Shown: one piece after another, positions 19,455 to 25,680 of the stretch
How the letters are laid out: each line of letters opens with the position of its first letter
How positions within the stretch are numbered: position 1 is the stretch's first letter
DNA from: Salinibacter altiplanensis
GTDB lineage: Bacteria > Bacteroidota > Rhodothermia > Rhodothermales > Salinibacteraceae
DNA length: 64,000 bases
Direction: 5' to 3'
Assembly (NCBI RefSeq): GCF_002894645.1
Contig: NZ_NCQY01000030.1
Span: 404,325-468,324, forward strand
Made by a program: the position numbers and the translations under genes
Notes under the pieces: model-generated
The model's database searches: none
What the model saw: the letters and a program-made list of their open reading frames with translations, nothing else
What the model was told of the DNA's origin: nothing

Positions 19455-19733
19455 ATGGTCACCCTCTACCGCCGTCCCGACGACACACAGGCCGACGAGA
19501 TCGAAGAGGCCCTCAACGACATGGCCATCGCCCATGAAGTCGAACGGGTCGGAGAGGAGGCCCCCCTTCCGGAAGACCTCTCTCCCCTTCCGGCCCTCCG
19601 AGAGGACAGCGAGGTCGTCACCGGAGCCTCGGCCCTTCGCACACGCCTCCAAGCTCTACGCGACCTGATGGCGGACTGGCACCGATTTCAGTCCGATGCC
19701 TGTTACGTCGAGGAGGACGGATCGATCTGCTAG
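19455..19733 (+). CDS. Small acidic conserved protein of unknown function (glutaredoxin-like N-terminus)
   Basis: A 92-residue acidic protein beginning MVTLYRRPDDTQADEIEEAL, which has the beta-alpha pattern of a thioredoxin/glutaredoxin fold but no CxxC. Its only cysteines are near the C-terminus (DACYVEEDGSIC). The ATG at 19455 has AGCAGG seven bases upstream, one of few recognisable Shine-Dalgarno sequences here; an ATG at 19410 in the same frame is possible. It diverges from the decarboxylase and precedes gcvP by 148 bases. I do not recognise a named family. Confidence 0.6.
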   Translation: MVTLYRRPDDTQADEIEEALNDMAIAHEVERVGEEAPLPEDLSPLPALREDSEVVTGASALRTRLQALRDLMADWHRFQSDACYVEEDGSIC

Positions 19734-19881
19734 CCTTCCCGGGATGTCCCCACGGCCGGGCCGGTCTGTTGCAGGCTTTTCAGCAATTGCGGACAACACC
19801 GCGTGCCCGTGGGACATATACCTGATTGTCTCGGCATTCTCACGCCCTGGACTCTCTTCTCACCCAACCCTCTGTCTTCAG

Positions 19882-22794
19882 ATGGCCATCGATCTCTCGT
19901 CCGCCAACACGTTCGACGAGCGTCACCTCGGCCCCACGGCCACCGACGTGGATGCCATGCTCGACGCCCTCGGGGCCGAGTCGCTCGACGCCCTCGTCGA
20001 CGCGGCCATTCCGGACTCGATCCGCACCGACAAGCCGCTCGACCTGCCACCCGCCCTTACCGAACAGCAGGTGCTCGGCGCGGCCCAGGACGCCGGCAAG
20101 AAGAACGACACGTGGCGCTCGTTCATCGGGATGGGGTACCGCAATACCCACACCCCCCCCGTGATCCAGCGCAACATTCTGGAGAATCCGGCCTGGTACA
20201 CGCAGTACACCCCCTACCAGGCCGAGATCGCACAGGGACGCCTGGAGGCACTCCTCAACTTCCAGAACCTGACGATCGACCTGACGGGCATGGAAATCGC
20301 GAACGCGTCGCTGCTCGACGAGGCAACCGCCGCCGCGGAGGCGATGATGATGCTGAACCGGGTCGACCGCCGCAGCGACGCGTCTACGTTCTACGTGTCC
20401 GAGGACTGCCACCCGCAGACCATCGAGGTGGTACAGGGCCGCGCCGAGCCAATTGGGATCGATGTGATCGTAGAGGCTCCCGAGAACTTCGTCTTTGGCG
20501 AGGACACGTTCGGCTGCCTCTTGCAATATCCCACGACCGACGGCGCGGTGCACGACTATGGGGACGTGGCCGACCGGGCCCACGAGGCGGACGCCTACGT
20601 GGCCGTGGCCGCCGACCTGCTGAGCCTCACGCTGCTGGAGGCGCCGGGCGAGTGGGGGGCCGACGCGGTCGTCGGCTCCACACAGCGCTTTGGGGTCCCG
20701 ATGGGCTACGGCGGGCCGCACGCCGCCTACTTCGCGACGCGCGAGCGATCCCAGCGCCAGGTGCCCGGCCGCATGATCGGGGTCACCAAAGATGCCGACG
20801 GCGAGATGGCGCTTCGCATGGCGCTCCAGACCCGCGAGCAGCACATTCGCCGGGGCCGCGCAACCTCCAATATTTGTACCTCCCAGGTGCTGCTGGCCGT
20901 GATGGCCTCGATGTATGCCGTGTACCACGGTCCCGAAGGGCTCCACGGAATTGCCACGCGGGTGCACGATCTCACGAAGACCCTGGCCGAGGGGCTGGAG
21001 CGGACGGGCCACACGGTCCGCCACGACGCGTTTTTCGACACCCTGCGCGTGGACCTGACCGACACGACCCAGGCCCAGGTCCGCGAGCAGGCCGAGGCCC
21101 ACGAGATCAACCTCCGCTACTACGACGACGGGTCAGTGGGCATCGCACTCGACCAGACCGTCGACGCCGAGGACCTCGACGCCCTCTTTACCGTCTTCGG
21201 TGCCACCAACGGCCAGAAGCTGTACGCCGACGACCTGGCCGCCACCCTCGACAGTGGCTACGACGGCCCGATGCCACGACAGACCACGTACCTCCAGCAT
21301 CCGGTCTTCAACTCGTACCACTCCGAGGGCGAGCTGACGCGCTACATGAAGTCGCTGGCCGACAAGGACCTGTCGCTCGTCCACAGCATGATCCCGCTGG
21401 GGTCGTGCACGATGAAGCTGAACCCGACCGCCGCCCTCCAGCCGATCTCAAACCCGCAGTTTGCGGGCCTACACCCCTTCGCCCCCCAGGAGCAGGCGGA
21501 AGGCTACGAGCAGGTAATCGACGAGCTCAGCGGCTCCCTCACGGAAATCACGGGCTTCGACGACATCTCCTTCCAGCCGAATTCCGGGGCCTCCGGCGAG
21601 TACACCGGCCTTCTGATCATTCAGGCCTACCACGAGGCACAGGGCGAGGGACAGCGGGACGTCTGCCTCGTCCCCGAGTCCGCCCACGGCACCAACCCCG
21701 CCAGTGCCAACATGGCCGGGATGGAGGTCATCACCATCGACTGCGACGAGAACGGGGACGTGGACCTGGAGGACCTCCGCGAGCAGGCCGAGGCAAACAG
21801 CGACCGCCTGGCCGCCGCGATGATCACGTACCCGTCCACACACGGCGTCTTCGAGGCGCACGTCCAGGAGATCTGCGACGTCATCCATGAGCACGGCGGG
21901 CAGGTGTACCTCGACGGCGCCAACGTCAACGCGCAGGTGGGCCTCTGCCGCCCCCGCGAGTACGGGATCGACGTGTGCCACCTCAACCTGCACAAGACGT
22001 TTAGCATTCCGCACGGCGGCGGCGGACCCGGGGTAGGACCGGTCTGCACGGCCGAGCACCTGAGCCCCTTCCTCCCCGGCCACCCGGTGGTCGAGACGGG
22101 GGGCGACCAGAGCATCCCCGCCATCGCCGCGGCGCCGCACGGCAGCGCCCTCATCCTGCTCATCTCGTGGGCGTACATCAAGCTGCTGGGCCCGGAGGGC
22201 CTCACCCAGGCCTCGAAGACGGCCCTCCTCAACGCCAACTACCTGGCCGACCAGCTGTCAGACCACTACGACATTGTGTTCCGCGGGCCGAACGACCGGG
22301 TGGCCCACGAATTTATTCTCGACCTCCGTCCGTTCCGTCGCGAGCTCGACATCAACGAGCAGGACGTGGCAAAGCGGCTCATGGACTACGGCTTCCACGC
22401 CCCCACGATGAGCTGGCCGGTGGTGGGCACCCTCATGGTGGAGCCCACGGAGAGCGAATCGAAGGCGGAGCTCGACCGCCTGGTCGACGCGTTCGCCGCC
22501 ATCCGCAGCGAGGTTGAGGCCGTGGAGTCCGGCGCGCTGGGAGCGGAGGAAAGCACCCTCAAGCAAGCCCCCCACACCGCCGAGATGGTGACGGCCGACG
22601 CGTGGGACCATTCGTACAGCCGCGAGACTGCGGCCTATCCGGTGGAGGCGGTGCGCGAGCGCAAGTTCTGGCCGACGGTGCGCCGCGTAAATGACGCCTA
22701 CGGCGACCGGAACCTCTACTGTACCTGTCCGCCGACCGACGCGTATGAGGCGGAGGAAGAGGAGGAACTGCAATCGGCCTTGAAGACCGCGTAG
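19882..22794 (+). CDS. gcvP: Glycine dehydrogenase (decarboxylating), P-protein of the glycine cleavage system
   Basis: A 970-residue single-chain P-protein, the full length of the fused (homodimeric) form rather than the split gcvPA/gcvPB form. It decarboxylates glycine and passes the aminomethyl group to the lipoyl arm of GcvH. The N-terminus has ERHLGPTATDVDAML. The PLP-binding lysine is Lys705 in NLHKTFSIPHGGGGPG, and MIPLGSCTMKLNPTAAL (near 505) and ESAHGTNPASA (near 600) are typical. The ATG at 19882 gives the conserved start; the frame upstream is open but not protein-like. gcvT and gcvH are not in the window. The 148-base leader has a long imperfect inverted repeat (19744-19755 with 19806-19817). 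Confidence 0.97.
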   Translation: MAIDLSSANTFDERHLGPTATDVDAMLDALGAESLDALVDAAIPDSIRTDKPLDLPPALTEQQVLGAAQDAGKKNDTWRSFIGMGYRNTHTPPVIQRNILENPAWYTQYTPYQAEIAQGRLEALLNFQNLTIDLTGMEIANASLLDEATAAAEAMMMLNRVDRRSDASTFYVSEDCHPQTIEVVQGRAEPIGIDVIVEAPENFVFGEDTFGCLLQYPTTDGAVHDYGDVADRAHEADAYVAVAADLLSLTLLEAPGEWGADAVVGSTQRFGVPMGYGGPHAAYFATRERSQRQVPGRMIGVTKDADGEMALRMALQTREQHIRRGRATSNICTSQVLLAVMASMYAVYHGPEGLHGIATRVHDLTKTLAEGLERTGHTVRHDAFFDTLRVDLTDTTQAQVREQAEAHEINLRYYDDGSVGIALDQTVDAEDLDALFTVFGATNGQKLYADDLAATLDSGYDGPMPRQTTYLQHPVFNSYHSEGELTRYMKSLADKDLSLVHSMIPLGSCTMKLNPTAALQPISNPQFAGLHPFAPQEQAEGYEQVIDELSGSLTEITGFDDISFQPNSGASGEYTGLLIIQAYHEAQGEGQRDVCLVPESAHGTNPASANMAGMEVITIDCDENGDVDLEDLREQAEANSDRLAAAMITYPSTHGVFEAHVQEICDVIHEHGGQVYLDGANVNAQVGLCRPREYGIDVCHLNLHKTFSIPHGGGGPGVGPVCTAEHLSPFLPGHPVVETGGDQSIPAIAAAPHGSALILLISWAYIKLLGPEGLTQASKTALLNANYLADQLSDHYDIVFRGPNDRVAHEFILDLRPFRRELDINEQDVAKRLMDYGFHAPTMSWPVVGTLMVEPTESESKAELDRLVDAFAAIRSEVEAVESGALGAEESTLKQAPHTAEMVTADAWDHSYSRETAAYPVEAVRERKFWPTVRRVNDAYGDRNLYCTCPPTDAYEAEEEEELQSALKTA

Positions 22795-22930: not shown

Positions 22931-23998
22931 ATGGTCGAGATTGTACGCGGCGATCTGTTCGATGCGGACGTGGCGGCGCTCGTAAACCCAGTCCACTGCG
23001 CGGGCCTCATGAAGCGCGGGCTGTGTCGCCAGTTCAAGACCCGGTTCCCCGATAATTTCGAGCAGTACAAAGCCGCCTGCAACGACGGGGGCCTGGCGCC
23101 GGGCGACGTGCTCGTCCACGACCGCGGGGGGCTTTTCGGGGACGATCAGCACCCCCGCTACGTCCTGAACGTGGCCACCAAGGACCACTGGCGCGACGCC
23201 TCGTCTCCCACACACATCGAGTCGGGTATGGCGGCCCTCATCGACGAGGCCGTTGCCCACGACATCCCCTCACTCGCCGTCCCCGCACTGGGCTGCGGCG
23301 GGGGTGGGCTCGACTGGCCCACGGTGCGCCCGCTGCTCACCGCCCCACTCCAGTCGCTCAATGGCGTCCGCGCCCGCCTCTACGCCCCCCGGTCGGCGGA
23401 CGCCCAAGAGGATTCTGGGGCGGACGAGCGTCCCGCGATGACACGGGGGCGGGCGCTTCTCCTCGCTGTCTTCGACGCCTACGCCGGGCCGGGCGACACC
23501 GTCAGTCCGCACGCGGCTCACAATCTCGCCTTCCTACTGCAGGGCCTGGGCGAAGCGCTGCGCCTCACGTTCGAACCGGGCCCCCGCGGCCTTCGCGCCA
23601 CGGGCCTCACGGCGGTACTGCGCCGAATCAACGGTCACTTTGTCGCGGGCCACGTTCCGTCGCACCAGGAGTCCCCCTTTCGCCTGCGCCAGGCAGCGAT
23701 CGAGTCGGCCGGTGACGTGCTCTCGGGCCTCTCCGACGCCACCGAACGTCTCGGCCGGGCGCGGGAGCTCATTGAGGGCTACGATGCGCCCGATGCGCTC
23801 GAGCTGCTCGCCACCGTGGGCTGGATCATGCGGCACGACGCCCAGGCTCGGCGCCGCCCCGAAGCGGTGGTACGGGCCGTACAGGACTGGAGCCGCCGCA
23901 AGGCAGAGCGCTTCGCATCGGAGCAAATTACGGCGGCCTGGCAGCGGCTCCGCCGACACGAGTGGATCAGTCCAGGACAGCCGGCGGACTCCGAGTGA
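22931..23998 (+). CDS. darG: DarG-like DNA ADP-ribosyl glycohydrolase antitoxin (macrodomain), without an adjacent DarT
   Basis: A 355-residue two-domain protein. Residues 1-153 are a macrodomain: GDLFDADVAALVNPVHCAG, then GLCRQFKTRFPDNFEQYKAAC, a Lys84 in VATKDHWRDA at the place of the catalytic Lys of DarG, IESGMAAL, and the phosphate loop PALGCGGGGLDW. Residues about 170-346 match the DarG C-terminal domain (TRGRALLLAVFDAY, AHNLAFLLQGLGEALRL, INGHFVAGH), which binds and neutralises DarT. DarG removes ADP-ribose from thymidine in DNA. Normally darT lies just upstream and overlaps, but here gcvP is upstream and a convergent K+ channel gene downstream. The usual GxMGKG loop reads AGLMKRGL. 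Confidence 0.85.
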   Translation: MVEIVRGDLFDADVAALVNPVHCAGLMKRGLCRQFKTRFPDNFEQYKAACNDGGLAPGDVLVHDRGGLFGDDQHPRYVLNVATKDHWRDASSPTHIESGMAALIDEAVAHDIPSLAVPALGCGGGGLDWPTVRPLLTAPLQSLNGVRARLYAPRSADAQEDSGADERPAMTRGRALLLAVFDAYAGPGDTVSPHAAHNLAFLLQGLGEALRLTFEPGPRGLRATGLTAVLRRINGHFVAGHVPSHQESPFRLRQAAIESAGDVLSGLSDATERLGRARELIEGYDAPDALELLATVGWIMRHDAQARRRPEAVVRAVQDWSRRKAERFASEQITAAWQRLRRHEWISPGQPADSE

Positions 23999-24027: not shown

Positions 24028-25680
24028 TCACTGCGATGATTTTTCAGGCTCAAATCGAGCTCGAAATTGCTGGATGCCGTCCTCGGTTCCGGCGACGAGC
24101 ACCTCGTCGTCCGCCTCGAAGGCAAAGAGGGCGTCGTCGGGATCGGTGAGAAAATCGCCCTCCCGATACACGGCAAGCACTGTGTAGTTGGTCTGTGCGT
24201 CCGGATCGACCTCCCCCAACGTTTTTCCGGCCCATGGGGAGGCGGGGAGGCGGACCACGTTGATGTGTCGATCACGGGACCGGTAGCCCTCATCCTCGAA
24301 TATCGTGGCGGCCAGCATCCGCCCACAGACCGTCGGCAGGGCCTGCACAAAGTCCGCGCCGGCCCGGTAGAGGTTCTGGACGGCCATTTCGTCGTGGGTC
24401 CGCACCAGAATCTGCACCTCCGGGTTCAGGTCGCGCGCGATGAGCGTCGCAAACGTGGCGACGCTGTCATCGTCCACGGCGATGATGAGGGCCGACGCGT
24501 CTTCGATTCCGCAGGTCCGAAGCGCATCAGGGTCGCGAACGTCCCCCGCCACGTCCACCTCCTTTCCGTCTTTGAGGTCGAGCACCGTCACCTCGGCGTG
24601 TGCCGCCCGGAGAGATTCCCGCGCGGCCTCCCCCGAGTCGCCGTGCCCAGCGAGAATGATGGACTGTGGCGTGAAGGCGCGCACGTAGGGGGCCATCTCG
24701 TCCCGGAGAGCGTCCAGTTGATCGGGCGTGCCGGCAAGAAACAGGCGCGTTCCCGCTTCCAAGGGCGTATCGGCGTCCACCGACGTCTCGAAGGTACCCT
24801 CGAACCATGCCCCGACCACGCGCACCCCGAACCGTTCCGTGAGCCGGAGGTCGTGGAGCGAATGGTCGTGGGACGGGCCGTGCCGGGTCACGATAAGCTC
24901 CGCAAAGTCGATCTCGGCGCCAATCGTGGCCTGCTCCTCCACGTTGGCCGCGGCCGCCACAGGTACCTTCGCAGCGAGGCTTCGTCCGAGCAGCTGCCGG
25001 GGCGACAGCGCCACGTCCGCTCCCGCTGCCCGGTGGTATCGGGTTGCCGAGGCGTCCTCGGCGAGCGTAATAATACGGCGTTCTGGACTCGCCTCACGGG
25101 CCGCGAGCACGATGCTGGCGTTTTCGTCGTCGGCCACGTCGGCCACCAGGGCCTTCGCTGCACCCACGGATGCACGCTCCAGGACAGCGGTTGACGTTGG
25201 GTCCCCCTCCATGACCTCGTACTCCTGCTCGTAGAGGGACGCAGCCCGATCCGCATCGGGCTCGATCAGCACGTAGTCCTGGCCTCGCGCACTCATTTCT
25301 CCAATGAAGACCTCGACCCGGGGTGTGTAGCCGCACACGATCACGTGACCGGACCGGCTCGAGAGCGTCGTCGGGGCCGTGGGGCGAAGCGCCTCTCGGA
25401 GCCAGGGTACGACGAACACGTCCACGGCACTCAGGATGAACCCAATGCCCGCCAGCTGGATGACAATCACGAGCACGTTCATCTGGGGACTGCTCCACGG
25501 CGCATCCTCGCCGTATCCGGTCGTCGTGAACGTCTGCACCACCACCTCCAGGGCCTGGTACCACGGCCGCGGCCGCCCCTCCCAGAGGCTCATGCCCAGG
25601 CTGTATGCCGCCGTCAGCCCCAGCGTGGCGGCCACGAGCACGAGAAGGTAGTACACGGTGCGGCGGGTCAAGAACGTCAT
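24028..25680 (-). CDS. Two-TM potassium channel with two RCK (TrkA) domains
   Basis: A 550-residue inner-membrane channel. TM1 is about residues 9-30, the pore helix 40-51, the selectivity filter TTTGYGED at 52-59 and TM2 about 66-92. A first RCK/TrkA-N domain begins at HVIVCGYTPRVEVF (near 111), followed by a TrkA-C-like segment (about 235-320). A second RCK domain begins at SIILAGHGDSGEAA (near 341) with its own TrkA-C end (about 465-540). Both N domains have Rossmann-type glycine patterns, the first GYTPR and the second GHGDSG. Such tandem-RCK channels are gated by nucleotides or ions. K+ flux suits a salt-in halophile, and the architecture is common in haloarchaea. It converges with darG, 29 bases apart. 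Confidence 0.92.
   Translation of the reverse strand: MTFLTRRTVYYLLVLVAATLGLTAAYSLGMSLWEGRPRPWYQALEVVVQTFTTTGYGEDAPWSSPQMNVLVIVIQLAGIGFILSAVDVFVVPWLREALRPTAPTTLSSRSGHVIVCGYTPRVEVFIGEMSARGQDYVLIEPDADRAASLYEQEYEVMEGDPTSTAVLERASVGAAKALVADVADDENASIVLAAREASPERRIITLAEDASATRYHRAAGADVALSPRQLLGRSLAAKVPVAAAANVEEQATIGAEIDFAELIVTRHGPSHDHSLHDLRLTERFGVRVVGAWFEGTFETSVDADTPLEAGTRLFLAGTPDQLDALRDEMAPYVRAFTPQSIILAGHGDSGEAARESLRAAHAEVTVLDLKDGKEVDVAGDVRDPDALRTCGIEDASALIIAVDDDSVATFATLIARDLNPEVQILVRTHDEMAVQNLYRAGADFVQALPTVCGRMLAATIFEDEGYRSRDRHINVVRLPASPWAGKTLGEVDPDAQTNYTVLAVYREGDFLTDPDDALFAFEADDEVLVAGTEDGIQQFRARFEPEKSSQ

Follow-up and report, generated by a model that had tools for sequence, protein, structure and literature searches.

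A DarG-derived protein of Salinibacter without a detectable DarT partner and with fixed changes in its pocket and C-terminal domain

Salinibacter altiplanensis encodes a full-length two-domain DarG for which no DarT is detectable, either in the 64,000-nucleotide stretch of DNA analysed here (the window) or in the whole genome. The gene, referred to below as the orphan, stands at a conserved locus, and its product carries replacements at positions that are invariant or nearly so in the other DarGs of the phylum. The explanation we favour, as somewhat the more probable one, is that a DarG lineage parted from DarT long ago and was retained to work on its own as a resident ADP-ribosyl hydrolase, with an altered pocket and C-terminal domain. 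The features on which the analysis rests are listed in Table 1.

Table 1. Position of the orphan gene, its protein features and its neighbours within the window
Feature	Position	Strand	Basis or remark
Orphan DarG-derived protein, 355 aa	22931..23998	+	ATG start; family profiles and model superpositions
Macrodomain, residues 1-155	22931..23395	+	Pfam Macro 2.8e-15; 5m3e Z 27.0
Altered ADP-ribose/base loop, residues 20-32, PVHCAGLMKRGLC	22988..23026	+	Alignment; canonical TVN..GxMG[KR]GIA
Residues 81-84, VATK	23171..23182	+	F81V, P82A; T83 and catalytic Lys84 kept
ADP-ribose-binding loop GCGGG, residues 121-125	23291..23305	+	Glycines kept
C-terminal domain, residues 168-343, DarT-binding-domain fold	23432..23959	+	7yk3_B Z 20.4; profile match 4e-36
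Residues 198-202, NLAFL, replacing canonical K-L-x-Y-F	23522..23536	+	Alignment
Residues 220-222, GLR, replacing GP[YF] of all 34 other DarGs	23588..23596	+	Alignment
gcvP, conserved upstream neighbour	19696..22794	+	136 bases before the orphan ORF
K+-channel/TrkA-type gene, conserved convergent neighbour	24028..25680	-	29 bases between; named by sequence appearance

A two-domain DarG without a DarT

The protein was matched by the NCBIfam DarG family NF048014 at 1.5e-84 (284 bits, above the cut-off of 250), by the PADLOC DarG profile at 1.1e-88 and by Pfam Macro at 2.8e-15. Its C-terminal domain matched a profile of 34 other DarG C-domains (4e-36) and, in a phmmer search, the C-domain of Mycobacterium tuberculosis DarG, 7yk3_B (1.5e-6). 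An AlphaFold2 model built from 22 related sequences had a mean pLDDT of 89.6 and a pTM of 0.58, which we ascribe to uncertainty about how the two domains are placed. The model macrodomain superposed on Thermus aquaticus DarG (5m3e) with a Z of 27.0 (1.0 Å over 150 residues), and the model C-domain on 7yk3_B, from the complex with DarT, with a Z of 20.4 (2.2 Å over 172 residues; VIA-align). A preliminary description, made from the sequence alone, had placed here an open reading frame with Lys84 in VATKDHW, the loop AGLMKRGL, a macrodomain and a DarT-binding C-domain, and had proposed structure prediction against Thermus DarG and a profile search of the C-domain as checks. The frame and both domains are indeed present, and both checks returned DarG. 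What holds for the C-domain is its fold; continued binding of DarT is doubtful, with K198, P221 and Y222 replaced in every orthologue.

The spacing of the neighbouring genes, said to leave no room for darT, is borne out by the coordinates, and the orphan is the only gene between gcvP and the channel gene in each of the six genomes that carry it. No convincing conserved promoter was found in an alignment of the gcvP-darG intergenic region. The window had also been described as free of DarT-like frames, and tblastn with 11 DarTs found no match in its 64 kb at E 0.1. The genome-wide search that had been suggested gave the same result. In the S. altiplanensis assembly (30 contigs, 3.59 Mb, 99.75% complete), neither Pfam PF14487 nor a profile built on ten DarTs of related genomes produced a hit at E≤10, and the second profile was equally without hits, at the same threshold, in the five congeners that carry the orphan. 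Its positive control was G009, a congener whose DarT it detected at 7e-64, this DarT being itself one of the ten rows. A toxin missed in an assembly gap is unlikely, because the five further genomes also gave no DarT and two of them are nearly closed (2-3 contigs).

Replaced residues in the pocket and the C-terminal domain

The orthologues were compared with 34 further DarGs from the phylum; DarT is present in the genomes of 29 of them and was not detected in those of the other five. Six macrodomain residues that are invariant in all 34 are replaced in all six orthologues (T20P, N22H, G28K, A32C, F81V and P82A), so that the pocket signature T-V-N, G-x-M-G-[KR]-G, found in 34/34, reads P-V-H, G-L-M-K-R-G. 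Lys84, T83, W87, G25, M27, G30 and the glycines at 121, 123 and 125 are unchanged in all six. In the C-domain, K198N and P221L affect residues invariant in the 34, and Y201F and Y222R residues kept in 33 of them. Thus, the departure of the loop from GxMGKG, correctly seen in the preliminary description, is part of a wider one that extends to T20P, N22H, A32C, F81V, P82A and the C-domain motif. The five compared DarGs from genomes without detected DarT retain both the canonical pocket and the canonical C-domain motif.

In T. aquaticus DarG, ADP-ribose is contacted by N8, L9, T20, N22, V31, Q34, T79, G117, G119, N120 and G121; K80A is inactive, N22A, K29E and G119E are markedly impaired (N22A the most of these), and N22 has been suggested to hold the ADP-ribosylated thymidine in position (PMC5179494). 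Lys80 of that protein corresponds to Lys84 of the orphan, and N120 to G124. Read against these contact and mutation data, the orphan retains the nucleophile and the glycine loop, and the side proposed to position the base is altered. The earlier idea of a different substrate, drawn from the altered loop, has gained weight, as the change is fixed in six orthologues and reaches the ADP-ribose-contacting T20 and N22. Taken alone, N22H need not alter the substrate, since human TARG1, which cleaves thymidine-ADP-ribose (PMC8501950), has Ser at the N22 position in our alignment; its Gly28 is kept.

The DarT-binding domain of canonical DarGs resembles a distant SocA/Panacea antitoxin domain. When 34 canonical DarG C-domains were compared with 13 Panacea proteins, the score was 48.6, and 150 column shuffles reached at most 17.5; canonical subsets of six rows scored 31-55, and one close clade 27. 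The matched stretch contains the K-L-x-Y-F and GP motifs, which are common to both. We found no statement of this likeness in the literature searched. The orphan C-domain scored 13.9, within its own shuffles (at most 17.6), and the Panacea signature reaches it only via its homology to canonical DarG, not directly. In Panacea, the GPV motif is important for neutralisation, which the double change G62A V64S abolishes (PMC8832971), and the C-domain of EPEC DarG suffices to bind and neutralise DarT (PMC7003065). On these grounds, the fact that the orphan C-domain no longer shows the signature is consistent with loss of toxin binding. A switch of this domain from an acidic DNA mimic to a basic DNA binder was considered and rejected, as the net charges (-3 to +3 in the orphans, -18 to +2 in nine others) overlap without clear separation. 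S. altiplanensis also encodes a SocA/Panacea protein (PF13274, 9.9e-14; L041:1492-2103, minus strand; contig C29, about 628,927-629,538), whose C-terminal part is matched by the DarG profile.

Distribution, selection and relatives

The orphan occurs in six of 13 genomes of the genus (G000, G003, G004, G005, G006 and G010); the copies in the five carriers among the 12 congeners are 66-81% identical to it. The order gcvP - darG - channel gene is the same in all six. In G001 and G012 other genes occupy the slot; in the remaining congeners, some of them incomplete assemblies, no member of the orphan's family was matched except in G009. A gcvP tree groups the six carriers with G001 and G012 (81% bootstrap), and one gain and one loss would therefore suffice to explain the distribution; the inner branches of this tree are weak. 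No close copies were found on plasmids, phages or viral contigs, and recent horizontal spread was rejected. The best matches outside the genus reach about 40% identity on plasmids and 39% on phages and viral contigs, and one Paenibacillus contig carries a macrodomain 42% identical to that of the orphan. The macrodomain matches from Streptomyces phages (H29-H33, H36 and H38) are annotated as 'ADP-ribosyltransferase', which is probably the opposite of their activity.

Pairwise Nei-Gojobori estimates for all 15 pairs of the six orthologues gave a dN/dS of 0.09-0.20 for the macrodomain, 0.22-0.46 for the C-domain and 0.18-0.33 for the whole gene, with dS of up to about 0.9. Both domains are under purifying selection: ratios well under 1 in each, at this level of dS, argue strongly against neutral decay.

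A phylogeny of partnerless DarGs had also been suggested as a check. The macrodomain tree unites the six orthologues on one branch (support 100/99), whose stem measures 1.3 changes per site against tips of 0.03-0.2. This branch joins the single-domain macrodomains of two genomes from the same taxonomic family, G018 (99/95) and G021 (96/95). Long branches meet at these joins according to a treekit warning, so their exact order needs caution, and the long stem may in part be a long-branch effect. A VLVHDRGGLF stretch and the NVAT.DHW frame, common to the orphans and the G018 protein, fit the grouping. In the C-domain tree the orthologues again form one branch (100/100), whose position within the tree was not resolved. 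Like the orphan, the two relatives come from genomes (86-87% complete) in which DarT was not detected; unlike it, they lack a C-domain and lie at other loci. The G018 protein (L058:3823-4356, minus strand), a single-domain DarG-type macrodomain, shares H22 and A82 with the orphans but has isoleucine in place of the catalytic lysine (K84I; VATIDHW), whereas the G021 protein keeps N22, G28 and P82.

Across 394 genomes of the phylum, 36 passed the DarG cut-off; DarT was found in 27 of these and not in the other nine. Three of the nine carry the orphan described here, and the rest are G058, G268, G287, G308, G321 and G386. In G386, 32 residues matching the end of DarT are encoded next to darG; the darG of G268 is apparently near a contig end, and the match in G321 is partial and contains a stop. 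No DarT remnant was found in the DNA examined around darG in G058, G287 and G308. The comparison of canonical motifs took in five of these six DarGs, with G321 left out. DarGs without DarT are thus not rare, and long-separated, remodelled ones were seen only in the present lineage. The canonical full-length darG of G058 (L062:3838-5534, in a single-contig genome) lies directly behind higBA-like genes. The congener G009, which is without the orphan gene, has a canonical darTG pair; its DarG is 30-34% identical to the orphan and keeps the canonical residues. A methylase-like gene (1400 aa) adjoins this pair (L056:4434-6174) on one side and a helicase-like gene lies two places off on the other, surroundings that are probably a defence island.

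Proposed function and alternatives

With the DarGs of macrodomain-type DarTG systems (Thermus, M. tuberculosis, EPEC) the orphan shares both domains and their order, the catalytic lysine (Lys80/84), the loop glycines and the C-domain fold. It differs from them in having neither an adjacent nor a distant DarT and in the replacement of T20, N22, G28, P82, K198, P221 and Y222. Human TARG1 is likewise a stand-alone DarG relative with a catalytic Lys84 (PMC8501950), and the orphan model superposed on it with a Z of 19.9, but it is only about 21% identical, lacks a C-domain and has kept the loop glycine at position 28. SCO6735 of Streptomyces coelicolor resembles the orphan in being a DarG/TARG1-like macrodomain without a paired DarT. 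It is a hydrolase that reverses thymidine-ADP-ribose and protects its host from introduced DarT; it belongs to another macrodomain subgroup and has Gln85 in place of the catalytic lysine that the orphan keeps (PMC9411070). The model superposed on its structure, 5e3b, with a Z of 16.7 only. SCO6735 has, to our knowledge, no DarG C-domain, which the orphan keeps. No paper covering both Salinibacter and the macrodomain was found in the literature searched.

In the stand-alone hydrolase that we favour, the macrodomain would bind ADP-ribose, held by the glycine loop, and Lys84 would act as has been proposed for its equivalents in DarG and TARG1, cleaving ADP-ribose from an adduct that is most likely on nucleic acid. 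The reshaped base side (T20P, N22H, G28K, P82A) would shift the accepted base or linkage, so that the enzyme, probably of altered specificity, may select an adduct other than, or beyond, the thymidine in DarT's motif. The C-domain, whose fold is kept under selection, most likely no longer sequesters DarT, because the motif of DarT-paired DarGs has been lost, and it may have another partner or position the substrate. A more specific proposal, offered tentatively, is that an antitoxin that outlived its DarT has become a housekeeping enzyme which reverses ADP-ribosylation, by a writer not yet assigned, of nucleic acid or another target, with a specificity set by N22H and G28K and a new partner for its C-domain.

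The main rival is an antidote against DarT from outside, analogous to the role of SCO6735 in S. coelicolor (PMC9411070): the orphan would still reverse thymidine ADP-ribosylation and guard the cell against the DarTs of plasmids, phage-defence islands or competitors. We regard this as possible but rather unlikely. Lys84 and the glycines of the ADP-ribose loop are kept, DarTs were found on plasmids, a canonical darTG exists in the congener G009 near N6-methylase-like and helicase-like genes, the T. aquaticus macrodomain alone suffices as an antitoxin (PMC5179494), and SCO6735 does shield S. coelicolor from introduced DarT (PMC9411070). However, the replacements affect residues in contact with ADP-ribose or without variation in DarT-paired DarGs, as well as the C-domain motif, and G009 has DarTG without the orphan, although a single genome shows nothing.

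Hydrolysis could just as well have been lost through the base-side changes, leaving a protein that only binds ADP-ribose. A reader of this kind, binding ADP-ribose free or on a target while the C-domain relays a signal, would fit T20P, N22H and G28K in the pocket and the loss of the catalytic lysine in the sister protein of G018, but the invariance of Lys84 in 6/6 orthologues makes it improbable. Very unlikely is a partner encoded elsewhere in the genome, DarT-like or another ADP-ribosyltransferase, that is too diverged for the profiles used. Remote families do escape profiles, and the altered C-domain might be suited to an equally altered toxin; against this stand the two negative DarT profiles, the lack of a further gene between gcvP and the channel gene, and the absence of KptA/Tpt1, which we rejected as a conserved writer, from five of the six orphan genomes (it was found in one). 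KptA/Tpt1-type RNA 2'-phosphotransferases occur in two of the eight genomes of the genus searched (L158 in G009, L159 in G005). Finally, a decaying, functionless relic of a lost darTG pair, as the preliminary description had contemplated, is hardly credible: the missing partner and the foreign genes in the slot of G001 and G012 would agree with it, but the reading frame is intact in six genomes at the dS and dN/dS given above, and the pocket is near-invariant among the six orthologues.

The orphan prompts a question about the writer: what would attach the ADP-ribose for a stand-alone hydrolase to remove? It is also a warning for annotation, as the name 'antitoxin DarG' is assigned automatically once the NCBIfam cut-off is passed, though no toxin exists. 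The changed positions do not vary in toxin-bearing relatives, so the residues for base specificity and for holding DarT become testable. If our explanation is true, the orphan would be an example from nature of an antitoxin retained and remodelled after the loss of its toxin, in the enzyme pocket and the toxin-binding domain alike.
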